Shown here: positions 548-20,709 of the stretch, in pieces
How the letters are laid out: the number at the start of each line of letters is the position of its first letter
Position numbering within the stretch: the stretch's first letter is position 1
Origin: a virus
Direction: 5' to 3' (one strand)
IMG/VR virus record: IMGVR_UViG_3300030108_001474
Coordinates: 1 to 20,709 of that record
DNA: 20,709 nt
Translations under genes and position numbers: made by a program
Notes under the pieces: generated by a model
What the model was told of the DNA's origin: nothing
The model's database searches: none
What the model saw: only the letters and a program-made list of their open reading frames with translations

Positions 548-1534
548 ATGGCTAACGCCACAGTTTCACGCCTGGGTTTGGTGAACAATACAGGAACAGA
601 CTTTGACGCTCTGTTTCTGAAAGTGTTTTCAGGAGAAGTTCTTACAGCATTTGCTCGTAACAACATCTTTAACGAAGCACTACATTCTGTTCGTACCATA
701 ACTTCAGGTAAATCAGCACAGTTCCCAGTAACAGGAACAGCAACTGCTGCATATCACACACCAGGCACACCATTAGTAGGTGCTAACCAGATCTTGGCAA
801 ATGAGAAGATTATTTCTATTGATGATCTACTTATTTCACAAGCATTTGTAAGCAATTTAGATGAGCTTAAGAATCATTACGATGTAAGAGCTACATACGC
901 TGATGAGTTAGGTAAGGCTCTTGCTAAGACCTATGACCAGAACGTAGCGAAGGTAATTGCTAATGCTTCAAGAGCTTCAACAACTCTTACAGGTGGCAGT
1001 GGTGGTATTGTTTCTACTCTTGCTTCTGGTAATACAACTTCAGCAAACGTATCAGGTGATGAGATAGCTGGTGCTATCTATGACATCGCACAGGCATTTG
1101 ACGAAAGAGACATCCCTCCAACAGATCGTTTCTGTGTACTACCACCTGCTGAGTACTACAAGTTAGCTGAGTCTGCTACAAGAACAGTAGATGTTGACTT
1201 CAACCCAGGTGGCAATGGTTCATTTGCTTCAGGTCGTGTACAACAGATTGCTGGTATTCCAGTGATGATGAGTAACAACGTACCTCAATCAAACGTAGGA
1301 TCTAACCCAAGTGGAGCTAACAACACCTATTCAGGTGACGATAGTAAAACTATTGGTCTTGTCTTCCATAAATCAGCAGTTGGTACTGTAAAGCTTATGG
1401 ATATGACTACTGAAATATCTGGTTCTGACTATGGGATCATGTATCAAGGTACATTGATGGTTGCTAAGTATGCTCTTGGTCATGGAATCCTAAGACCTGA
1501 GTGTGCAGCTACAATCAAGTTATCTGCTTCTTAA
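548..1534 (+). CDS. Major capsid protein (T7 gp10-like)
   Basis: This forms the icosahedral shell of the virion. The 328-residue product has the features of cyanophage/T7-type capsid proteins: N-terminal FLKVFSGEVLTAFARNNIF (about residues 23-41), SGKSAQFPVTGTATAAYHTP (53-72), and the ISIDDLLIS and HYDVRATYADELG segments (about 89-121). A central Ala/Ser/Thr/Gly-rich loop (about 138-165) is followed by the conserved DERDIPPTDRFCVLPPAEYY block (about 184-203) and RVQQIAGIPVMMSNNVP. T7 gp10A is of similar length (about 345 residues). A strong SD precedes the ATG and a hairpin terminator follows 8 bases after the stop. I see no evidence for the T7 10B -1 frameshift extension at the 3' end. Confidence 0.95.
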   Translation: MANATVSRLGLVNNTGTDFDALFLKVFSGEVLTAFARNNIFNEALHSVRTITSGKSAQFPVTGTATAAYHTPGTPLVGANQILANEKIISIDDLLISQAFVSNLDELKNHYDVRATYADELGKALAKTYDQNVAKVIANASRASTTLTGGSGGIVSTLASGNTTSANVSGDEIAGAIYDIAQAFDERDIPPTDRFCVLPPAEYYKLAESATRTVDVDFNPGGNGSFASGRVQQIAGIPVMMSNNVPQSNVGSNPSGANNTYSGDDSKTIGLVFHKSAVGTVKLMDMTTEISGSDYGIMYQGTLMVAKYALGHGILRPECAATIKLSAS

Positions 1535-2280: not shown

Positions 2281-4743
2281 ATGGCAGTTGTATCTAGAGC
2301 AATACCAACCTTACTTAGAGGTGTCTCACAGGCTGCTGACAATACTAAACAAGCTGATCATGCTGACATACAGGATAATGCTGATAGCAACCCTGTTACA
2401 GGTCTTACAAAACGTTCTGGCTTGCAATATATTACTAATTTAGGTTCTTCTGCATTAGGTAATGTTCATATACAAACTATCAATAGAGATCTAAATGAAA
2501 GGTATGTAGCAATATTTAGCAATGGTAATGTAAGAGTTTTTGAATTAGATGGTACAGAAAAAACAGTAAACAAACCTGACGGAACAACGTACTTAAACAC
2601 TTCTGATCCTAGAAGTGTAATTAAAACAGTTACTATTGCTGACTTTACTTTTGTTGTTAATACAAGTGTAACAGCAGCTATGGATAGCACTTTAAGTGAA
2701 GCTGCTTCAAATATTACTCAAGCTGTTGTATTCATTAATCAAGTTTCAGATAAGACTACATACTCAATAACTGTAGATGGAGTTACCGTTACTGATGACA
2801 CTTCATCAGACTCTACACTAAGCACTACACAAGTTGCTAGTGATTTAGTATCAGGACTTAACTCAGGTCTTACTGGTTTTACTATTGCCCGAAATGGTCC
2901 TGTTATTCATATTAAAAAAACAGATGGCAGTAACTTTTCTATTGATGGTAATGACACTCAGGGTAATACCCAAATGACGATAGTAAAAGATACTATCCAA
3001 AGGTTTACAGATCTTCCAACAGTGTCACCTAATGGTTATATCGTAGAAGTAAAGGGAGATGAGACTACAGATTTTGATAATTATTACGTTAAGTTTGTGA
3101 CTAATAACGGTAATGCTTTTGAAGAAGGACAGTGGGAAGAATGTGTACAACCAGGGATAGAGTTTAAATTTAATTACGACACAATGCCACATGTCTTAGT
3201 AAGACAAGCAGATGGTAACTTTAGATTTGCAAGAGTAGATGGGGATACATATACCATTAGTGGTACTAACTATACATTACCTAAATGGGGAGAGAGAACT
3301 GTTGGTGATTTAGATTCTGCACCTAGTCCTTCTTTTATTGGCAGTAAAATTAATAACGTCTTCTTTTTTAGAAACAGACTTGGTTTTTTGGCTGATGATA
3401 ATGTTGTTCTATCAAGAGCAGCAGAGTTTTTTAACTTTTTTCCAGAAACTGTTTTATCTGTTATAGATAGTGAACCTATAGATGTAGCAGCTTCACATAC
3501 TAAAGTAGCTATTCTTAGAAGTGCTGTAACAGTAGAACAAGAACTAATACTTTTTTCTGATCAAACACAATTTGTTCTTACTTCATCAACAGATAACTTA
3601 ACACCTAGAACAGCAAACGTAGCAGTCCTAACTGAATTTGAATCAGATGATGATGCACAACCTGTAGGTGCTGGTAGCAGTATTTATTATTTATCTAAAA
3701 GAGGATCTTTTGCTAACGTAAGAGAATATGTTTATCAAAGAGATCTTGTTATAAGAGAATCTAGTAATATTACTGTTCATGTACCAAAACTAATACCAAG
3801 TAACTTATTTAAGTTTGCAGTTTCTACAAGTGCAGATGTCTTGGTTTGTCTTGGTACAGATGAACCAAATAAGTTATACATTAATAGATGGTTGTATGGT
3901 CAACAGTATCAGAAGATATTAAACAGTTGGTCTACTTTTACCATAAATGAAAACAGATCTATTAAAAATGTTGACTTTGTTGGTAGTGATTTATTTTTAG
4001 TTATAGAAGAAGCTAACGGTACAACACTAGAAAAAATACCTTTTGAAAATAATTTTACTGAACCAAATGCAACTTTTGAATATCGTTTAGATCATAAAGT
4101 TACTGAAGCTACTACAGGTGTATCTGTTGTTTATAACTCTTCAACTAATATTTCTACGTTTACTGTGCCTTATAGATTAAGAGCCAATATGAATATTGTA
4201 GGTAGGTATTTAGGTAGTGGAGAGACAAGTACTTTTGTAAATGAGCAAGGCACAACTATAACTTTAAAACCAGGACAAGTTATATCAACAACTAATACTA
4301 CTAATGGTTCAACATCTACAATTACAGCTACAGGTGATTTTAGAAATAGTAAATTTATTATTGGTGAACCTTACGAAATGCACTATAGATTTAGTCAACA
4401 AAGACTTACCGAAGGTCAAGGTGGCAGAAATTCTGGTGAAATAATTAGTGGTCGTCTACAACTACATCATTTTTATATCAAGTTTGAAGACACAGGTTTT
4501 TTCAAAGTAGAAGTCACACCAGATCATAGAGATACTTCTATTCATAAATTTAGTGGTGTATTGTTAGGTTCAACAAGTAGCACTATTGGATCAGTAAATT
4601 TAGAGTCAGGATCATTTAAAGTTCCTGTGATGAGCAGAGCAGATAGAGTTAATATTGATGTAAAGAACAATACATTCCTTCCTACAACATTGGCTAGTGC
4701 AGAATATGAAGCTATCTTCCATATGAGGAGTAGAAGAATTTAA
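2281..4743 (+). CDS. Tail tubular protein B / nozzle (T7 gp12-like)
   Basis: Six copies form the conical tail nozzle below the gp11 ring. The 820-residue product starts with the family signature AIPTLLRGVSQAADNTKQ (about residues 7-24) and GLTKRSGLQYITNL. It contains the conserved FRNRLGFLADDNVVLSRA block around residue 363, typical of gp12 proteins, followed by VAASHTKVAILRSAVTVEQE. The rest is beta-rich, with many Thr/Ser residues. T7 gp12 is about 794 residues. The start has only a weak AGGT element overlapping the previous stop. Its own TAA overlaps the next ATG by one base (TAATG), so the following gene is translationally coupled. Confidence 0.94.
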   Translation: MAVVSRAIPTLLRGVSQAADNTKQADHADIQDNADSNPVTGLTKRSGLQYITNLGSSALGNVHIQTINRDLNERYVAIFSNGNVRVFELDGTEKTVNKPDGTTYLNTSDPRSVIKTVTIADFTFVVNTSVTAAMDSTLSEAASNITQAVVFINQVSDKTTYSITVDGVTVTDDTSSDSTLSTTQVASDLVSGLNSGLTGFTIARNGPVIHIKKTDGSNFSIDGNDTQGNTQMTIVKDTIQRFTDLPTVSPNGYIVEVKGDETTDFDNYYVKFVTNNGNAFEEGQWEECVQPGIEFKFNYDTMPHVLVRQADGNFRFARVDGDTYTISGTNYTLPKWGERTVGDLDSAPSPSFIGSKINNVFFFRNRLGFLADDNVVLSRAAEFFNFFPETVLSVIDSEPIDVAASHTKVAILRSAVTVEQELILFSDQTQFVLTSSTDNLTPRTANVAVLTEFESDDDAQPVGAGSSIYYLSKRGSFANVREYVYQRDLVIRESSNITVHVPKLIPSNLFKFAVSTSADVLVCLGTDEPNKLYINRWLYGQQYQKILNSWSTFTINENRSIKNVDFVGSDLFLVIEEANGTTLEKIPFENNFTEPNATFEYRLDHKVTEATTGVSVVYNSSTNISTFTVPYRLRANMNIVGRYLGSGETSTFVNEQGTTITLKPGQVISTTNTTNGSTSTITATGDFRNSKFIIGEPYEMHYRFSQQRLTEGQGGRNSGEIISGRLQLHHFYIKFEDTGFFKVEVTPDHRDTSIHKFSGVLLGSTSSTIGSVNLESGSFKVPVMSRADRVNIDVKNNTFLPTTLASAEYEAIFHMRSRRI

Positions 4744-5195
4744 TGGGGTATTTAAGAAAAGCAAATCTAGAAGATCTCAAACATGTTGCAAAAAACATGA
4801 GGGAGATGGATAAACTTGAAGCGTTTTATCAATCAGGACAAGAACCAAAACAAGCTCTTCAATTATCTTATATATGCAGCAGTATAAACATGGCAATAGC
4901 TGATGATAATGATGCTCCTATAGGTCTTTGTGGAGTGGTACAAGGTGGTGTTATATGGATGGTTGCTACTGATGAGTTGTTTAGTAATAAAAAATATAAA
5001 ATACAACTAATAAGAAAAGGTCGAGAATGGGTCGATAGCCTATTGAAATCTTACAAAATCCTATATAATTTTGTATATGCAGAGAATGATTCTGCTATCA
5101 AGTGGTTAAAGTCTCTTGGGTTTACTTTTATCCAATATCACGAACACTACGGTATGCAGGGTAAACCATTCTACGAATTTTTGAGGATCGCCTAA
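4743..5195 (+). CDS. GNAT-like protein in the T7 gp13 position
   Basis: The 150-residue product has an acetyltransferase-like layout: an N-terminal helix pair, a central strand segment GLCGVVQGGVIWMVATDELF (about 59-78), a helix KIQLIRKGREWVDSLLKS, a strand NFVYAENDSAI, then WLKSLGFTFI (about 118-127). The last part matches the N-x-x-A-x-x-x-x-x-x-LGF ending of the GNAT fold. The acetyl-CoA pyrophosphate loop (Q/R-x-x-G-x-G/A) is not clearly present, so catalysis is doubtful. Its position between gp12 and gp14 equivalents and its size (T7 gp13 is 138 residues) make it the gp13 equivalent, needed for virion morphogenesis. The start codon overlaps the previous stop. Confidence 0.75.
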   Translation: MGYLRKANLEDLKHVAKNMREMDKLEAFYQSGQEPKQALQLSYICSSINMAIADDNDAPIGLCGVVQGGVIWMVATDELFSNKKYKIQLIRKGREWVDSLLKSYKILYNFVYAENDSAIKWLKSLGFTFIQYHEHYGMQGKPFYEFLRIA

Positions 5196-5756
5196 ATGTG
5201 TGTTGCAGTTCTAGGATTAGGTGCAAAAGCAGGTGGACTGTTTCTTGGATCTTTGGGTCTTAGTTTAGCTACTGGTTTAGCACAAAGATCAGCAGCACAA
5301 GCAGCAGCAGACCAAACATATCAATCTTCGTTAATAGCAAACAGATCAGCAGAACAGGCTTTTGCTGCACAACAGGAAGCATTAGCAGCACAGTTAAAAG
5401 AAACTAGAGCATCACAAGCACAAGAAAAATTAGCGAAAACAATTCAAAGCTTACAAGCAAAAGGTTCAATTAGAGCTTCAGAAAGAGCAGGTTTAACTGT
5501 TGATTTATTATTAGCAGATCAAGAAAGACAAGCAGCTAATGCTAGAGAATCTATCAATCAAGCACTTGAATCTATAGGTAGACAATATACAAGAAATGTT
5601 GAAGGTCTTGTTGCTCAAAGAGATAATAGACGTAATCAATTACAAAGTAATATAAACCAAGCTTACAATCAAATTCCTTCACTTGGATCAGTTTTACTTA
5701 ATGTAGCTTCTACAGGGTTATCTAACTACGGTACTTTTGCAGCAATTCCCACATGA
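5196..5756 (+). CDS. Internal virion protein (T7 gp14-like)
   Basis: The 186-residue product begins with a hydrophobic Gly/Ala/Leu segment (about residues 4-28), then a long Ala/Gln-rich helix with heptad character (about 30-150), and ends SVLLNVASTGLSNYGTFAAIPT. The same plan is seen in T7 gp14 (196 residues), the internal core protein that is ejected first and forms a channel in the outer membrane. The ATG directly follows the stop of the gp13-like gene, with GAGG about nine bases upstream. The end overlaps the gp15-like gene by four bases (ATGA), indicating coupled translation of the ejected core proteins in order. Confidence 0.85.
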   Translation: MCVAVLGLGAKAGGLFLGSLGLSLATGLAQRSAAQAAADQTYQSSLIANRSAEQAFAAQQEALAAQLKETRASQAQEKLAKTIQSLQAKGSIRASERAGLTVDLLLADQERQAANARESINQALESIGRQYTRNVEGLVAQRDNRRNQLQSNINQAYNQIPSLGSVLLNVASTGLSNYGTFAAIPT

Positions 5757-8410
5757 CTTCTAGTTTCCAAAGCACAGCATTTCAATCGGCAGCAAGACTT
5801 GTTGATACTTTTGTAGCAGAACCTTCTGTTCTTCCAAAAACAGATGCGGAAGAATTAGCTTCAGTACTAGCAACAGTAAATCCAAACATACAAAAATTCA
5901 TACAAAATAGACTTGATATTGTAAAAGAAGAAGAATTTAATAAAGGTCTTGAAATAGCTATAAATGAAGCAAAATCTGATTTGAAAGGATCAATATCAGA
6001 TGTAAGAAAAAAAGAAGGAGATGAAGCTGCAAGACAGCTAATAGGTGGTAGTATATTTTCACAGGCAGGTTATGAAAAACAAAAGGCACTTTTAGCAGGT
6101 GATAGTGCTAGTCGAAAAATAAAAAGTTTGTATGAAACTTATTCTGTAAAAAAAATAAAAAATGGAACAGAAATTTCTATACCAATAAGTCATTTTGATG
6201 TTGGATCGCCAGAATATAAAATTTTTCTAGAAGAAGCAGCAAGCTATGACAACCAAAAGTTAGAAGGTATAAGAAGTAATTATTTATCTCAATATTTCTT
6301 ACCAAAACAAGCAGCGGCAATAGAAGATGTTACTGCAACTCATGTTAAAAATCATAATGAATTTAATTTTCAAAGAACAAAAAAACAAGCTTTACCAACA
6401 ATATTTTCTAATTTTGAAACTTATATTGATGGTGATAAGGAAACAGCAATAACTAATGTAAATGAGTATATAGAAGACAATGTAATACTTGGTTTAGCTA
6501 GTGATAAGAAAACTAAATTTTTTGATTCGTTGCTTGATATTGGCGAGAGTTCAATTACTAGATTATATAATGTGACAGGTAAGGTATCTGATATTAATAG
6601 TGCTATAGAAATGTTAGGTGAGATTAATTATGGGCCAAATGGAACATCAAAATTTAAGAATCATCCCAAATTTGAAACAACATTTTTAGACCTTAAAGAT
6701 AAATTAGCTGATCAAAAAGATAAAGATAATAAAAGAGAACTAGAAAAAATTAAAGCTGTTGAAGATCAAACAATAGAAAAAATTCTTGAAAAATATCCAG
6801 ACGATGTAGAACGTGCTAATGCTTTGTTAGATTTCTTTCCATTTAGGAAAAAGAAAATTTTAGAAACAATAGAAATATTTGAAACAGATAGAAGTTCCAA
6901 GTATCAAGATCTACAATTAGATGTAGGATCAGGCTTATACGCTAATAGACCTGATGAAGCTTTAGAAGAATTAAAAGAAATTTGGGATAGTCATGGTGGT
7001 ACTGCAACACCAGAAGATAAAAGTAATTATGATAAAACATTTTCTGTAATTCAAAATTTTAAAAAAGCTGCACCTATTAATTACAACACACGAATTAGTA
7101 AAGCAGTTAACCAAGCTAATTCATTATTAGGTGGCAAATATGATGAGTATGGTTATACTTTTGAGGACAATACTAAAGGTATGCAAGCAATAGAATTAGA
7201 AAATGAATTTACCAGAAATGTTATAGATCAGATACAAAATACTACAGGCTTATCAAACGATGAGAAAGAAAATAAATTTAGAATTTTAAAAGATGCTTAT
7301 ATTGCAGAAGCACAAAGAATTGGATCTGGCAAAACACAAGAAGAAGTTGAAAAGGAACAAGAAATTCAAGCTTTATCAGATGATTCTGGGTTATCTATAG
7401 ACCAAATAAAACAAATACTAAGTGAAGAAGGCATGGAAACAGTAATCGGACCTGATAATACACCAGAAACCAATGCAGAAGAAATAAATACAGGTAATGA
7501 ACCTGGTGGATCTGGTAAAAGTTTTTTTGAAATTATTGGGAGAAAAGATGATTTACCTCAAATAGAATCAAGAGTTATACAAGAACTAACAAGTATGGGA
7601 GGTGTAACAAAAGAAAACAGAGATAAGTTGATTAAAGAAGTAATAGAAGAAAAAGAAAAAATGAATGTAACTAATATTGCAGGTAAATCACAAGCAGATT
7701 CTATAATTAAATTTTTACGGACAGGTGAATATGGTTTTGGCTTTGGTGGCCCTAAAACATATGAACCCTTAAAATCATTAGTAGATACAAGTAATTTAGA
7801 AGCTAGTGGTTTTAGCGATGACGATACACCTACTACTGTTACTGTTGAGCAAGGTGATACTTTAAGTGAGTTAGCAGATCAGTTTGGCTCGTCAGTCGAA
7901 GCAATTATGAAAGCTAATAATTTAACAAATCCAGACATGATAAGAATAGGGCAAGAGCTAGTTATGCCAATAGTTGAAAGGATTAACATGAAAGAAGTGA
8001 AAGATAATCAAATAAAAGCATTAAATGTAATTTTAAAAGATACAGACAAGACAAAAATAATACCTCAACCTAAAATAAAAGAAATGTTATTAGCTGTAGG
8101 TTTTGAACCAAACATTGCAAAAATCATGGCTGCTGTGGCGATGGCAGAATCAGCAGGTGATCCAATGATTGATACAGTCAAATCTGGCTCAGATCCACAA
8201 AAAAAACGTGAATTTTCTATAGGTCTGTTACAACTAAATATGAAAGATGATAGAGACAGATTATTAAATCTATTTGATATTGAGTCTGAACAAGAATTAT
8301 ACGATCCTATAATTAATGTAATTGCAGCTAAACGACTATACGATGAGCAAGGACTTGAAGCTTGGGGTGCTTATACAGACAACAAATATAAGCAGTTTTT
8401 AACTGATTAA
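5753..8410 (+). CDS. Internal virion protein (gp15 position) with LysM and lytic transglycosylase domains
   Basis: The 885-residue product is largely helical and charged, as expected of the gp15-like core protein that spans the periplasm during DNA ejection; T7 gp15 is 747 residues. Its C terminus carries two recognisable domains. A LysM domain (about 693-740) includes VEQGDTLSELADQF and GQELVMPI and should bind peptidoglycan. A lytic-transglycosylase-like domain (about 775-885) includes AAVAMAESAG with candidate catalytic Glu799, SIGLLQLNM (the GLMQ-type motif) and a final NVIAAKRLYDEQG...WGAYT segment, all in the order of the SLT fold. In T7 the transglycosylase is at the N terminus of gp16 instead. 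The ATG overlaps the gp14-like stop by four bases. Confidence 0.85.
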   Translation: MTSSFQSTAFQSAARLVDTFVAEPSVLPKTDAEELASVLATVNPNIQKFIQNRLDIVKEEEFNKGLEIAINEAKSDLKGSISDVRKKEGDEAARQLIGGSIFSQAGYEKQKALLAGDSASRKIKSLYETYSVKKIKNGTEISIPISHFDVGSPEYKIFLEEAASYDNQKLEGIRSNYLSQYFLPKQAAAIEDVTATHVKNHNEFNFQRTKKQALPTIFSNFETYIDGDKETAITNVNEYIEDNVILGLASDKKTKFFDSLLDIGESSITRLYNVTGKVSDINSAIEMLGEINYGPNGTSKFKNHPKFETTFLDLKDKLADQKDKDNKRELEKIKAVEDQTIEKILEKYPDDVERANALLDFFPFRKKKILETIEIFETDRSSKYQDLQLDVGSGLYANRPDEALEELKEIWDSHGGTATPEDKSNYDKTFSVIQNFKKAAPINYNTRISKAVNQANSLLGGKYDEYGYTFEDNTKGMQAIELENEFTRNVIDQIQNTTGLSNDEKENKFRILKDAYIAEAQRIGSGKTQEEVEKEQEIQALSDDSGLSIDQIKQILSEEGMETVIGPDNTPETNAEEINTGNEPGGSGKSFFEIIGRKDDLPQIESRVIQELTSMGGVTKENRDKLIKEVIEEKEKMNVTNIAGKSQADSIIKFLRTGEYGFGFGGPKTYEPLKSLVDTSNLEASGFSDDDTPTTVTVEQGDTLSELADQFGSSVEAIMKANNLTNPDMIRIGQELVMPIVERINMKEVKDNQIKALNVILKDTDKTKIIPQPKIKEMLLAVGFEPNIAKIMAAVAMAESAGDPMIDTVKSGSDPQKKREFSIGLLQLNMKDDRDRLLNLFDIESEQELYDPIINVIAAKRLYDEQGLEAWGAYTDNKYKQFLTD

Positions 8411-17706: not shown

Positions 17707-17958
17707 ATGTTGAAAATTGTAAACGGCACTGAAATTGCTCTTAGTGAAGAGGAAATTTCCACTATTAACGCTGAAGAAGCAGCATTACAAAAAGATTTAA
17801 TTCGTAATCAGCGTAATACATTGTTAAATGAGTCAGATGTTTACGCATTGGCTGACAGAATTACAGACGAATGGAGAACATACAGACAAGCACTGAGAGA
17901 TGTTCCAGCACAAGCTGGTTTTCCAGACAACATAACTTGGCCTACAAAACCTACTTAA
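17707..17958 (+). CDS. Tail fibre assembly/chaperone-like small protein
   Basis: The 83-residue protein has an acidic first third and a C-terminal motif: RNQRNTLLNESDVYALADRI, then WRTYRQALRDVP and GFPDNITWPTKP. This motif (R-x-x-LL-x-x-SD, W-x-x-YRQALRD-P, FP-x-x-WP) is the hallmark of the C-terminal domain in phage tail assembly chaperones and fibre-assembly proteins. Its position right after the fibre gene, nine bases downstream with AGGAA at six-base spacing, supports a role in fibre folding or attachment. Whether it acts as a chaperone or becomes part of the virion cannot be told. The following gene starts directly after its stop. Confidence 0.75.
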   Translation: MLKIVNGTEIALSEEEISTINAEEAALQKDLIRNQRNTLLNESDVYALADRITDEWRTYRQALRDVPAQAGFPDNITWPTKPT

Positions 17959-18207
17959 ATGACTGAACGTACCACTGATGAAATTGCAACTATCTTTACT
18001 AATGCCGGAGATAGCGTAACTGTAATTAACACCCTTGCTGCCTTATCTTCTTTAACAGATGAGCAAAAAGAAGAAATAGAAAGAAATGTCAAACACCTTG
18101 AAATTATCAAGGCTTATAAAAAAGAAGACGGTACTACATCTATTTGGACAACTGAAGACTTTACAGCACAAGATGCTGCGGTTACACTAGGTAAATCTAA
18201 GATTTAA
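17959..18207 (+). CDS. Conserved-looking hypothetical protein
   Basis: The 82-residue product starts directly after the stop of the previous gene, with no SD of its own, so it is probably coupled. It has two likely helices (TTDEIATIFTNAGDSVTVIN and DEQKEEIERNVKHLEIIKAY) and a C-terminal part KKEDGTTSIWTTEDFTAQDA that could form a short beta hairpin and helix. There are no cysteines, membrane segments or catalytic motifs. Similar small proteins follow fibre genes in marine phages, which suggests a fibre or virion accessory role, but I cannot name the family. Confidence 0.65.
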   Translation: MTERTTDEIATIFTNAGDSVTVINTLAALSSLTDEQKEEIERNVKHLEIIKAYKKEDGTTSIWTTEDFTAQDAAVTLGKSKI

Positions 18208-18210
18208 TTT

Positions 18211-18378
18211 ATGCCACGCAAAACAACAGAAGAACTTAAACAGGAACTTTTAACGTTACAGAAAAACTTTGACGAAGCAGTACAAGTGCAAAAAAATTGT
18301 CAAACAAGGGCTGTACAAATCAATGCAATATTAGCTGACAGGGCAGAAGAAGAAGTAAAGCCAACGAAAAAAAAGTAG
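18211..18378 (+). CDS. Small helical protein, zero-frame product of a possible frameshift gene
   Basis: ATG at 18211 opens a 55-codon frame encoding MPRKTTEELKQELLTLQ, then a helical stretch NFDEAVQVQKNCQTRAVQIN and AILADRAEEEVKPTKKK, stopping at TAG 18376-18378. It looks like a short coiled-coil protein of a type I associate with marine phages. It begins three bases after the previous stop. Its last codons are AAA AAA AAG TAG, forming the heptamer A AAA AAG (18369-18375) in the same frame register as the E. coli dnaX frameshift site. The -1 frame past this point encodes a zinc ribbon, so this may be the short form of a two-product gene. Confidence 0.7.
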   Translation: MPRKTTEELKQELLTLQKNFDEAVQVQKNCQTRAVQINAILADRAEEEVKPTKKK

Positions 18379-18506
18379 ATAATAATGGTTATTTAACCAA
18401 ACAATGCCCAGTATGCGGAACTGTTTTCAACACAATGGAACAAAGACGCATCTATTGCCGTAATGCTTGTAAAACAAGATCATGTAGATCTCGTAAAGCT
18501 GCTTAA
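18339..18506 (+). CDS. Zinc-ribbon reading frame without its own start; likely -1 frameshift extension
   Basis: This frame is open from the TGA at 18336-18338 to the TAA at 18504-18506. It has no ATG, GTG or TTG before the first cysteine pair; the first ATG (18432) would remove it. It encodes GYLTKQCPVCGTVF, then IYCRNACKTRSCRSRKAA: C-x2-C-x13-C-x3-C, a good four-cysteine zinc site with a basic tail, as in many small phage and bacterial zinc ribbons. It is exactly -1 to the upstream gene. Slipping on A AAA AAG (18369-18375) would continue with GTA at 18375 and give a 98-residue fusion of helical N terminus and zinc ribbon. A one-base sequencing or mutational indel in the A8 run is the alternative. 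Confidence 0.6.
   Translation, partial: QGRRRSKANEKKVDNNGYLTKQCPVCGTVFNTMEQRRIYCRNACKTRSCRSRKAA
18386..18399 (+). promoter_or_regulatory. Small stem-loop downstream of the slippery site
   Basis: TGGTT (18386-18390) pairs perfectly with AACCA (18395-18399) around the loop ATTT. It starts ten bases after the end of the A AAA AAG heptamer, about where a frameshift-stimulating hairpin would lie. At five pairs it is weak, so its role is uncertain. Confidence 0.3.
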
Positions 18507-18585: not shown

Positions 18586-18801
18586 ATGCTAAATCGCATC
18601 TGTCAGATTTTAAGTATCATCTCATTTGTTATGGTAGCTTCCATGACTGCCACAGGCGTAATAGGTTACAGGTATGTAACTTCAGAACAATTTAAATCTA
18701 AAGTAATGAATGAAATTCTTAGTAATGTTCAAGGAATGATGCCAAAGGTTTTAGATAAAGGTCTACCGAAGGTTACTGGCCCATCAATACCAAAACTTTA
18801 A
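18586..18801 (+). CDS. Small single-span membrane protein
   Basis: The 71-residue protein has a short N-terminal tail MLNRI, one hydrophobic segment (about residues 7-29, ILSIISFVMVASMTATGVIG) and a soluble remainder YRYVTSEQFKSKVMNEIL, ending in a Pro/Lys-rich VLDKGLPKVTGPSIPKL. It resembles proteins I know from cyanophages, always paired with a longer gene like the next one. In T7 the holin gene 17.5, also a short one-span protein, occupies the place after the fibre, so a lysis role is possible; a signal-anchor envelope protein is equally possible. No SD is visible at the ATG. Its TAA overlaps the next ATG by one base, so the pair is translated together. Confidence 0.7.
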   Translation: MLNRICQILSIISFVMVASMTATGVIGYRYVTSEQFKSKVMNEILSNVQGMMPKVLDKGLPKVTGPSIPKL

Positions 18802-19415
18802 TGCCTACGATTAAAGTACCTGAGATAAAAATACCGAAGATAGATATACCAGAAACACCCTTTGTATCAGAACACGTTTTAACAGGTAATATTCCAGGTT
18901 GTAATCTATATCACAGAGACTTAGAGATAACAAAAAATCCTAGTATTTTATACAACGACAGAAAAGCGTATATAACTTGTCCAGAAGGGGAGATGCCTTC
19001 GTTTAATCCAATAGATTACGATCCAAGTAAACTCATAAAAACAGTAACTCCTGCGCAATCTCCGCAGCAACCAGAATATAGACCTGTTATTTCAAAGAAA
19101 AAAGAAGAGAAAGAAACAATAGAAATACCACCCTGCCCTGGTAAAAAAGATTTAAGAGTAGGAAGTTTTGTTAATGAAAAGCGTTTGGAGCGTGTTTCTG
19201 GTTATAAAAGAGGAGAAGATGGAATTGAATGTATCACTCTTTATGAAGACGTACCCTTCAAAGATCAGTACATACCAAATCCTCCACAGCTTGTTAGCAC
19301 TGCTGTTATTGCTAGCGTTGCTGCCACTACTCCATTACTGCTTAATGTCGTAAAACCTTTGGTAAAAAATCTAATTAAGAAGTTGACAAAGAAGAAAGAA
19401 AAAAAGGTAGAATAA
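18801..19415 (+). CDS. Cyanophage-type conserved protein with C-terminal hydrophobic segment
   Basis: The 204-residue protein begins with an alternating Lys/Ile/Pro stretch, IKVPEIKIPKIDIPETPF (about residues 4-21), which continues the Pro/Lys style of the end of the previous gene. The central part has four cysteines in the contexts IPGCNLYHRD, YITCPEGEMP, IPPCPGKKDL and GIECITLYED, which may pair as disulfides. A hydrophobic stretch near the end (QLVSTAVIASVAATTPLLLN) precedes a lysine-rich tail VKNLIKKLTKKKEKKVE, the form of a C-terminal membrane anchor or amphipathic helix. I recognise this as a cyanophage-associated conserved protein of unknown function. It overlaps the preceding membrane-protein gene by one base, and a partner interaction is inferred from that. 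Confidence 0.75.
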   Translation: MPTIKVPEIKIPKIDIPETPFVSEHVLTGNIPGCNLYHRDLEITKNPSILYNDRKAYITCPEGEMPSFNPIDYDPSKLIKTVTPAQSPQQPEYRPVISKKKEEKETIEIPPCPGKKDLRVGSFVNEKRLERVSGYKRGEDGIECITLYEDVPFKDQYIPNPPQLVSTAVIASVAATTPLLLNVVKPLVKNLIKKLTKKKEKKVE

Positions 19416-19420
19416 TAGAA

Positions 19421-19492
19421 CCCTATTCGCCACGGCAATGGATAGGGCGTCTAGGTGGGCAAGTTTTCCGTGCTTGCCTACTGCTTTAATTT
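19421..19492 (+). terminator. Double-hairpin terminator at the convergent junction
   Basis: Two hairpins follow the plus-strand stop. CCCTAT (19421-19426) pairs with ATAGGG (19442-19447), with a short inner CCA/TGG stem. GTGGGCAAG (19455-19463) pairs with CTTGCCTAC (19473-19481) over nine positions including one G-U, with a nine-base loop TTTTCCGTG, and is followed by TGCTTTAATTT. On the minus strand the G-U becomes A-C and no T run follows, so the second hairpin mainly serves plus-strand transcripts. The stop of the minus-strand gene lies within this hairpin. Confidence 0.55.
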
Positions 19493-20251
19493 ATGAGTAT
19501 GTGGAATAACTTGATTTGGAACGGTTGTCAGCACAACATTTCTACAGCTAACAGCATCTTCTCCTACATATTTAACACCAAGTTTCAGTTGTTCGGCACA
19601 TATTTTAAGACGGTTGAGATTGACCTCTAATTTCTTGGCATCAAGCATAAACTCCTGATACTTTCTGTAGGTTTGTGCAGCTTCTAAACATTCTTTATTA
19701 AAGTTTTTGCCTAAAGGTATTTGAAAACTAGCAGTAATTCCATAGTTTAAGTTATATACTGTTTGATCTAATCGTTCCTGTTCTGCAACATATAAAATGT
19801 CCCCAGGATTAAGCAACTGGCCTGTATCACTGTCTTTTGCAGTGTCATAAATATTGGTTCGAGAGATTGTACTTCTTGGAAGGGAAAAATTTTCTCCTTT
19901 AGTGACAAAGGGAGTGATAGCCAAAGTAGGAAGTTGGCATTGTATTCCATTTGAAAATCTATGAGTTGGGAAGTTGCCATTTATTGTTTGATACCCATTA
20001 TTAATCACCGTACCAGAGGAACTGGCCGAAGGCGATGAGATTGTATTAGAGGAATATACAGGACTTGTAAACAGTAAGCCTATTGGGAAAAGATACTTAA
20101 GGAAGTTGTTTGGGTTTCTATAGTTTGAGTTCGATTTATTACGGAAACTGCATCTAATCCAGGTGCAAGGAAATTTTCGACCAGACTGAAATCTGAGCCT
20201 TCGTTTACTATTGTCCACTGAGGCTTGCTTGTTAATTCTGGTGTCACCCAT
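19478..20251 (-). CDS. Secreted cyanophage-type protein, start unresolved
   Basis: The convincing part starts near 20107 with a signal-peptide-like NNFLKYLFPIGLLFTSPVYS, followed by a Ser/Thr-rich stretch SSNTISSPSASSSGTVINNG. Then come GIQCQLPTLAITPFVTKG and, after a variable middle, a helical region with three cysteines (KECLEAAQTY, LKICAEQLKLGVKY, VSCRNVVLTT). This layout matches secreted or virion-associated proteins of cyanophages; function unknown. The frame is open to an ATG at 20251, giving 257 residues, but the first roughly 50 lie in the body of the overlapping upstream gene and look like shadow sequence. No ATG, GTG or TTG lies near the signal peptide; ATT at 20158 is one non-standard option. 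The stop lies in the convergent terminator hairpin. Confidence 0.65.
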   Translation of the reverse strand: MGDTRINKQASVDNSKRRLRFQSGRKFPCTWIRCSFRNKSNSNYRNPNNFLKYLFPIGLLFTSPVYSSNTISSPSASSSGTVINNGYQTINGNFPTHRFSNGIQCQLPTLAITPFVTKGENFSLPRSTISRTNIYDTAKDSDTGQLLNPGDILYVAEQERLDQTVYNLNYGITASFQIPLGKNFNKECLEAAQTYRKYQEFMLDAKKLEVNLNRLKICAEQLKLGVKYVGEDAVSCRNVVLTTVPNQVIPHTHKLKQ

Positions 20252-20445
20252 TGAAAATTAACTGCTCCATTGCCTGTATTCTGACTTGTCGTATATGTCG
20301 CATCAGGTGAGATATATGAGTCTGTTTTAATATTATGGCCTTGTACTGTATAACTGAAACCTGTTCTATAGTTTTCAGTAACAATCGTTTCTTGAATCAA
20401 GGCCAAGAGTAATAGTGGACTGAAGAGTTGCAGTTGTACCAGCAC
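20080..20445 (-). CDS. Secreted protein beginning inside the upstream gene
   Basis: The 121-codon frame starts with GTG at 20445 and opens with MLVQLQLFSPLLLLALIQ, a credible short signal peptide, followed by a beta-rich mature part ETIVTENYRTGFSYTVQGHN, PELTSKPQWTIVNEGSDF, LVENFLAPGLDAVSVINRT and the ending TTSLSIFSQ. The protein-like character of this part is strong, and it resembles cyanophage proteins of unknown function. The GTG lies 71 bases before the end of the preceding gene, in another frame, so the whole signal peptide is coded in overlapping DNA. No good SD is seen; nearby TTG codons within the leader are alternative starts. Its 3' end overlaps the next gene. Confidence 0.65.
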   Translation of the reverse strand: MLVQLQLFSPLLLLALIQETIVTENYRTGFSYTVQGHNIKTDSYISPDATYTTSQNTGNGAVNFQWVTPELTSKPQWTIVNEGSDFSLVENFLAPGLDAVSVINRTQTIETQTTSLSIFSQ

Positions 20446-20709
20446 CCATATCAGATAGGTTTACTGTCAATGCTTGCCCACTATCTAATGTAATAGCTAC
20501 AGATCCTACGTCACCACCTGATATGACTGTATTTTTACCAAGTAAAGGCAGCGATGGTACGACTCCGTTTGTCACTGTGGCAGATAGTAAACTTGGGATA
20601 GCATCCGCTTCAATGTAAGTTTCACTTGCAGAAAAGGCATCTCCTGTATTTACAACATTAAAGCTAGTGTCATAGTCAACAGTAGGAACACCGTTAGTAA
20701 TACCAGCAT
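20375..20709 (-). CDS. Beta-rich cyanophage-type protein, 5' end outside the window
   Basis: On the minus strand the frame is open from the window edge to the TGA at 20375-20377, giving about 110 residues. It reads AGITNGVPTVDYDTSFNVV, then ASETYIEADAIPSLLSAT, NGVVPSLPLLGKNTVISGGD and VGSVAITLDSGQALTVNLSD, ending GAGTTATLQSTITLGLDSRNDCY. Shorter versions could begin at the GTG at 20575, but coding character continues upstream of it to the edge, so the gene is truncated rather than short. The repeated Gly/Thr/Val strands suggest a beta-structured virion or surface protein; I recall similar C termini in cyanophages, but cannot assign a role. Its last 71 bases overlap the start of the next secreted-protein gene. 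Confidence 0.65.
   Translation of the reverse strand, partial: AGITNGVPTVDYDTSFNVVNTGDAFSASETYIEADAIPSLLSATVTNGVVPSLPLLGKNTVISGGDVGSVAITLDSGQALTVNLSDMGAGTTATLQSTITLGLDSRNDCY

Follow-up and report, generated by a model that had tools for sequence, protein, structure and literature searches.

Programmed −1 ribosomal frameshifting as in dnaX and IS911 very probably joins a short helical protein to a zinc-finger tail at the end of the tail-fibre region of an uncultivated marine virus. The window, i.e., the whole stretch of DNA that was analysed, comprises positions 1 to 20,709 of IMG/VR virus record IMGVR_UViG_3300030108_001474 (20,709 nucleotides). The assignment is made on comparative grounds; slippage has not been measured and no expression data are available. 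According to the proposed mechanism, the majority of ribosomes would halt at a zero-frame TAG, giving a helical product of only 55 amino acids that is probably a coiled coil, and a minority would slip by −1 on A AAA AAG, adding a zinc-finger tail of 43 amino acids and giving a protein of 98 amino acids. The signal, its register and the selection on the tail are established by comparison of relatives, and slippage itself is inferred from them.

Slip site and reading frames

The zero-frame gene (MPRKTTEELKQELLTLQKNFDEAVQVQKNCQTRAVQINAILADRAEEEVKPTKKK) ends in AAA AAA AAG TAG, with a run of eight A at 18367-18374 and a G at 18375. Read from the GTA at 18375, the −1 frame (VDNNGYLTKQCPVCGTVFNTMEQRRIYCRNACKTRSCRSRKAA) continues to a TAA stop at 18504-18506 and contains the cysteine pattern C-x2-C-x13-C-x3-C. 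It has no ATG, GTG or TTG from the preceding stop through the first cysteine. The features of the locus and of the cassette around it are as follows:

17707..17958, + strand: upstream cassette gene, Phage_tail_APC protein of 83 amino acids (PF16778, E=9.5e-21)
17959..18207, + strand: upstream cassette gene of 82 amino acids, with a clear relative at the same place in siphovirus contig G001 (translations compared by eye)
18211..18378, + strand: zero-frame open reading frame, predicted short product of 55 amino acids (phrog_20003, E=2.5e-16; AlphaFold, single 47-residue helix)
18369..18375, + strand: putative slippery heptamer A AAA AAG, in the zero-frame register and inside the run of eight A (zero-frame A AAA AAG/A in 131/133 relatives)
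18376..18378, + strand: zero-frame TAG stop abutting the heptamer (immediate stop also in 63/131 relatives)
18375..18506, + strand: −1 frame extension, predicted zinc-finger tail of 43 amino acids plus TAA, without a start codon of its own (pN/pS of 0.18 in relatives; AlphaFold)
18386..18399, + strand: small stem-loop, unsupported as a stimulator (z = 0.22 against shuffles; not conserved in the subgroup)
18586..18801, + strand: downstream cassette gene, phrog_568 (E=4.4e-12), with one hydrophobic segment by eye
18801..19415, + strand: downstream cassette gene, phrog_570 (E=1.3e-31)

A preliminary description of this DNA had located the gene, the A run and the finger, and all its coordinates proved correct when checked on the sequence. 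The heptamer does lie in the dnaX register within eight A, as it had claimed, and no start codon of the finger's own precedes the first cysteine pair. It had also drawn a stem-loop behind the slip site; the hairpin can be drawn, but it is no more stable than shuffled sequences and is not kept in relatives of the subgroup. Its central proposal, that a helical protein acquires a zinc finger by programmed −1 frameshifting, gains comparative support, because the register is invariant, the −1 frame is under purifying selection, relatives have an SD-like stimulator and the slip site is tied to the finger.

Frame relation, stimulators and alternative readings

Scanning viral contigs with the fused sequence as query yielded 13 loci, and scans with finger and coil alignments many more; with duplicates removed, there were 133 distinct finger loci in marine viral contigs. 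In 131 of these, a slip heptamer in the zero frame precedes a finger encoded in the −1 frame. The heptamer is A AAA AAG in 128 loci and A AAA AAA in the other 3, always in the slippery register, and the zero-frame stop follows immediately (63/131) or 12 nt later (48/131). At 80% identity, the N-termini of the 93 sequences taken first fall into 23 clusters and their tails into 27, so the conservation is not that of a set of near copies. The loci are related to one another, and their counts should not be read as independent events.

The finger core of the relatives has a pN/pS of 0.18 in the −1 frame, against 2.08 and 1.28 in the other frames, and substitutions at codon positions 1, 2 and 3 number 6410, 5692 and 18551. 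The pairs compared for pN/pS are not independent, although the direction is clear. Synonymous-biased change past the TAG, proposed beforehand as a check, is thus found, and by this measure the finger is under purifying selection.

A slippery site stimulated by an SD element is established for dnaX and IS911 (PMC5009743, PMC4066793). In the family described here, anti-SD pairing peaks at −19 to −7 before the heptamer, with −4.35 kcal/mol compared to −1.86 kcal/mol upon synonymous-codon shuffling (z about −11). SD-like elements were scored against the SD elements and spacings that a published study lists as stimulatory by experiment (PMC4066793); of 66 non-redundant loci, 34 contain one where 17.9 ± 3.2 are expected, and the rate elsewhere in the same genes is 10%. 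Many loci of the type II coil (see below) have a hairpin, GGGAUACUY...RGUGUCC, starting 5 nt past the heptamer, of about −12 to −17.6 kcal/mol; the downstream hairpin of one locus (L011) reaches a z of −2.55 against shuffles. Covariation in the type II hairpin does not exceed that of shuffles, making it at most a putative stimulator, and downstream sequences on average fold only modestly better than synonymous controls (z about −0.7 to −1.0). At least eight A, a tandem heptamer or a hairpin are present in 20/25 of the loci without an SD-like element, versus 18/61 (p = 3e-5), with thresholds that were chosen post hoc, after viewing. In most relatives, slippage would then be aided by an SD-like element around 10-14 nt upstream, by a strong downstream hairpin at a distance of 5 nt, by a more extended run of A or by a tandem slip site. 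No SD-like element was found in the window by the same published criterion, nor in its nearest relatives (L001-L004), and window and relatives alike have only a weak hairpin. Slippage in the window would be aided at most by the eight A and the immediate stop codon. Since the SD-like element is absent and the hairpin weak, the efficiency of frameshifting in this group may be low.

A fusion would also result if RNA polymerase added an A within the run and the transcript were then translated normally. The window has eight A, some relatives have nine or ten, and bacterial polymerase slips efficiently at runs of nine A or T (PMC5009743); slippage by the polymerase may contribute in this group of eight to ten A, including the window. 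Among the 131 loci, however, runs of six (38 loci) and seven (83) make up 121, and runs of eight, nine and ten A occur in only 4, 5 and 1. The run also ends in G and the codon register A AAA AAG is fixed, neither of which a polymerase needs, and an SD-like signal is meaningful only for ribosomes. Given the short runs, the fixed register and the selected SD-like signal, ribosomal frameshifting is the better explanation, and transcriptional slippage is left with a slim chance. Relatives were also inspected for a number of A that would fix the frame, named in advance as a possible refutation, and none was found; in the closest relative, L001, the run of nine A is due to a G-to-A substitution, which leaves the length and the frame unchanged.

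Reinitiation or internal initiation could alternatively produce the finger as an independent protein rather than as part of a fusion. In two relatives (L218 and L222) the finger is indeed a separate gene that starts with an ATG of its own and occupies the same position of the cassette, without a coil gene; they show the finger to be a protein module in its own right. These are 2 of 133, and a separate ATG gene, foreseen as a second possible refutation, does not explain the other 131. In 5 of the 131 loci an in-frame ATG, GTG or TTG is present somewhere between the preceding stop and the first cysteine, but in 126 there is none. Moreover, the SD-like element precedes the heptamer, with no −1-frame start at initiation spacing after it, and independent translation would leave the invariant A AAA AAG register without a reason; we find this reading scarcely credible. 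Finally, a sequencing or assembly error, or a recent frame-breaking homopolymer indel in what is truly one continuous frame, would be conceivable at a single locus, as homopolymers are error-prone and one extra A would fuse the frames, but it is refuted for the family and keeps practically no probability: 131 distinct loci from many metagenomes have the same frame relation with varied run lengths and flanks, none of them in frame, and N-terminal homologues without the finger also lack the heptamer.

The presence of the same slip signal in 131 of 133 distinct sequences marks the site as one of genuine recoding rather than a sequencing error. No in-frame fusion of coil and finger was found among the 133 distinct relatives, although a single-base indel in the run would create one, which argues, as far as sequences can tell, that the short product is itself under selection. 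From the same absence we infer that both products of the programmed frameshift are needed.

Coil, finger and cassette

AlphaFold predicts the coil of the window as one continuous helix spanning residues 6-52 (mean pLDDT 89.8), making it likely, by inference from the model, that the protein is an oligomeric coiled coil. Residues 1-47 match positions 1-47 of the 60 in the phrog_20003 profile (E=2.5e-16). The tail is predicted with less confidence as a beta-hairpin and a helix (mean pLDDT 77.8). By sequence it best matches zinc modules of phages, some of which belong to HNH-endonuclease families, and it is weakly similar to HNH-associated, YacG and C2H2-type zinc modules; one relative (L137) weakly matches phrog_1271 (8.6e-6). 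A fold search with the finger gave no Foldseek E below 1, with weak zinc-finger matches among solved structures; the comparison with the YacG structure gave a TM of 0.56 and a Foldseek E of 3.9. The 98-residue fusion has no match to an HNH nuclease domain, only its zinc module weakly matching HNH families, and an assignment as HNH endonuclease was rejected. So was one as YacG gyrase inhibitor, for which scores are below the curated one and nowhere near significant (best E 0.013-0.032 for single finger domains). The product lengths of 55 and 98 residues in the preliminary description stand as predictions, but its terms "zinc ribbon" and "nucleic-acid-binding" remain unproven: zinc binding is inferred from the cysteine pattern only, and a nucleic-acid target from this pattern and the basic C-terminus.

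The same slip arrangement is found behind helical N-termini without detectable mutual similarity. Between two sorts of coil, called type I and type II, no relationship was detected (hhalign probability 0.2%). The 31 type I and 48 type II coil loci that bear a finger all have it in the −1 frame, and 11 type I and 16 type II homologues with complete downstream sequence, plus truncated ones, have neither finger nor terminal slip site. In two of the finger-less homologues, an A6-type heptamer is present at another, internal position. A coil resembling type I, ending in VETAG* and lacking finger and slip site, is found in the cultured siphovirus MED4-184; in MED4-184/P-HS2 the coil is present and the finger absent. 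Loci L009 and L085 have an almost identical finger tail, placed behind a type I and a type II coil, respectively, which suggests, at the level of sequence, exchange close to the slip site. Several type I coils without finger (L120, L107, L115 and similar) end in KESQFETCTPKLEKxLESTSI, which is similar to the end of the finger tail of L009 (RLEKNKKSTSIQL); such loci may have arisen from finger-bearing ones by joint loss of finger core and slip site.

The major capsid protein of the window (548-1534) shares 92% identity with its counterpart in Prochlorococcus phage P-SCSP2, which belongs to the MPP-C cyanopodoviruses, a group lacking DNA polymerase (PMC9860041). This similarity places the window, which represents a T7-like podovirus, beside the MPP-C cyanopodoviruses as a new relative. 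A capsid gene of this type is present in 8 of 40 finger-bearing records examined, five full-length at 90-98% identity and three cut by contig ends, with type I coils wherever the coil was read; the other 32 records had no capsid match. Contigs G001, G002 and G006 have terminase, portal and capsid genes related to those of siphovirus MED4-184 (terminase 61-75%, capsid 66-85%), and G001 repeats the gene order of the window: tail-fibre-like genes, the 82-residue gene, coil and finger, phrog_568 and phrog_570. The motif of the downstream phrog_568 gene was present in 85 of 105 loci tested. From the MPP-C capsids and the MED4-184-like contigs it follows that podoviruses and siphoviruses both carry the cassette. 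MPP-C-like podoviruses share it with MED4-184-like siphoviruses, the helical N-terminal halves being different, which suggests exchange between morphotypes.

The carriers are uncultivated ocean viruses related to Prochlorococcus phages, with hosts inferred from cultured relatives only. A coil-finger fusion was not found in cultured phages (tblastn, three queries), a motif scan of P-SCSP2, the closest isolate by capsid, revealed no comparable zinc-finger gene, and genome_contigs contained no cellular relatives of finger or coil.

Several further observations were made on these genomes. Loci L300-L307 lie in siphovirus-like, MED4-184-related contigs of 37-41 kb (G001, G002, G003 and G006), which have the same cassette at the end of the tail-fibre genes as the podoviruses. 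In the window, 5753-8410 encodes an internal virion protein of 885 amino acids with matches of LysM/transglycosylase type (phrog_4602, E=1.8e-13), and 4743-5195, between tail tube B and gp14, a protein of 150 amino acids that by eye resembles a GNAT acetyltransferase. Long open reading frames on the minus strand (19478-20707) end the otherwise plus-strand late region.

Relation to known systems and significance

Known phage −1 frameshifts are mostly those of tail chaperones and capsid proteins. The signal described here is of the kind seen in E. coli dnaX and IS911, with an A AAA AAG heptamer, an upstream SD-like element in most loci and a downstream hairpin in the type II subgroup; it differs in the gene product, in the lack of SD and significant hairpin in the window and in the many loci with SD only. 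Like lambda gpG/gpGT, it would yield, from the late or tail region of a phage, a small protein together with a less abundant form extended in the −1 frame. However, the coil-finger gene follows the tail-fibre genes, is also found in podoviruses without a tape measure and has a zinc finger, not a T domain, as extension. An identity with the gpG/gpGT tail assembly chaperone was rejected, because the window gene follows the tail fibre in a T7-like podovirus and is not just upstream of a tape measure; in G001 it follows genes resembling those of tail fibres and is separated from the tape-measure match by more than 10 kb. Gene 10A/10B of T7, also a T7-like podovirus, makes a minor longer form by a −1 shift, but there it is the major capsid protein that is shifted, and the coil-finger gene is another gene. 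The zero-frame coil of the window and of type I loci resembles phrog_20003 (MED4-184 CPAG_00005-like, of unknown function), whereas the cultured relative MED4-184 has a similar coil with neither zinc finger nor slip site. The finger shares the CPxCG...YCSxxC pattern, with weak matches, with HNH-associated zinc modules (phrog_1271, phrog_15471) and YacG, but belongs to a small protein without HNH nuclease domain, and the YacG matches are very weak.

We found no paper on a zinc-ribbon frameshift or on frameshifting in cyanopodoviruses in the open-access literature, in agreement with the preliminary description; the arrangement is not confined to the cyanopodoviruses considered there, as siphoviruses have it too. 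The type of signal is known, and the gene family, the zinc-finger extension and the spread over two lineages are apparently undescribed in the open literature searched.

The likeliest design would be an oligomer built of short subunits, among them a few that carry the zinc finger, expressed from the tail-fibre or late region and possibly used as an assembly factor or as an adaptor binding DNA or protein. This role of a mixed coiled-coil oligomer with minority finger subunits is a guess by analogy with lambda gpG/gpGT, and we put it forward tentatively. It is possible, if rather doubtful, that a late-operon cassette is exchanged between unrelated marine cyanophage lineages, in which coiled-coil modules are joined to interchangeable finger tails only via the slip site, such that a fixed minority of the oligomer bears a finger aimed at DNA or at a host protein such as gyrase.

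A programmed frameshift at these loci would mean that a further family of recoded genes is widespread in ocean viruses, with a finger that gene callers would miss because it has no start codon of its own. The loci would also offer a set of natural slip sites where one stimulator apparently stands in for another, be it an SD element, a hairpin, the length of the A run or a tandem site. With them, the reason why a phage should need a fixed ratio of coil to coil-plus-finger could be put to the test.
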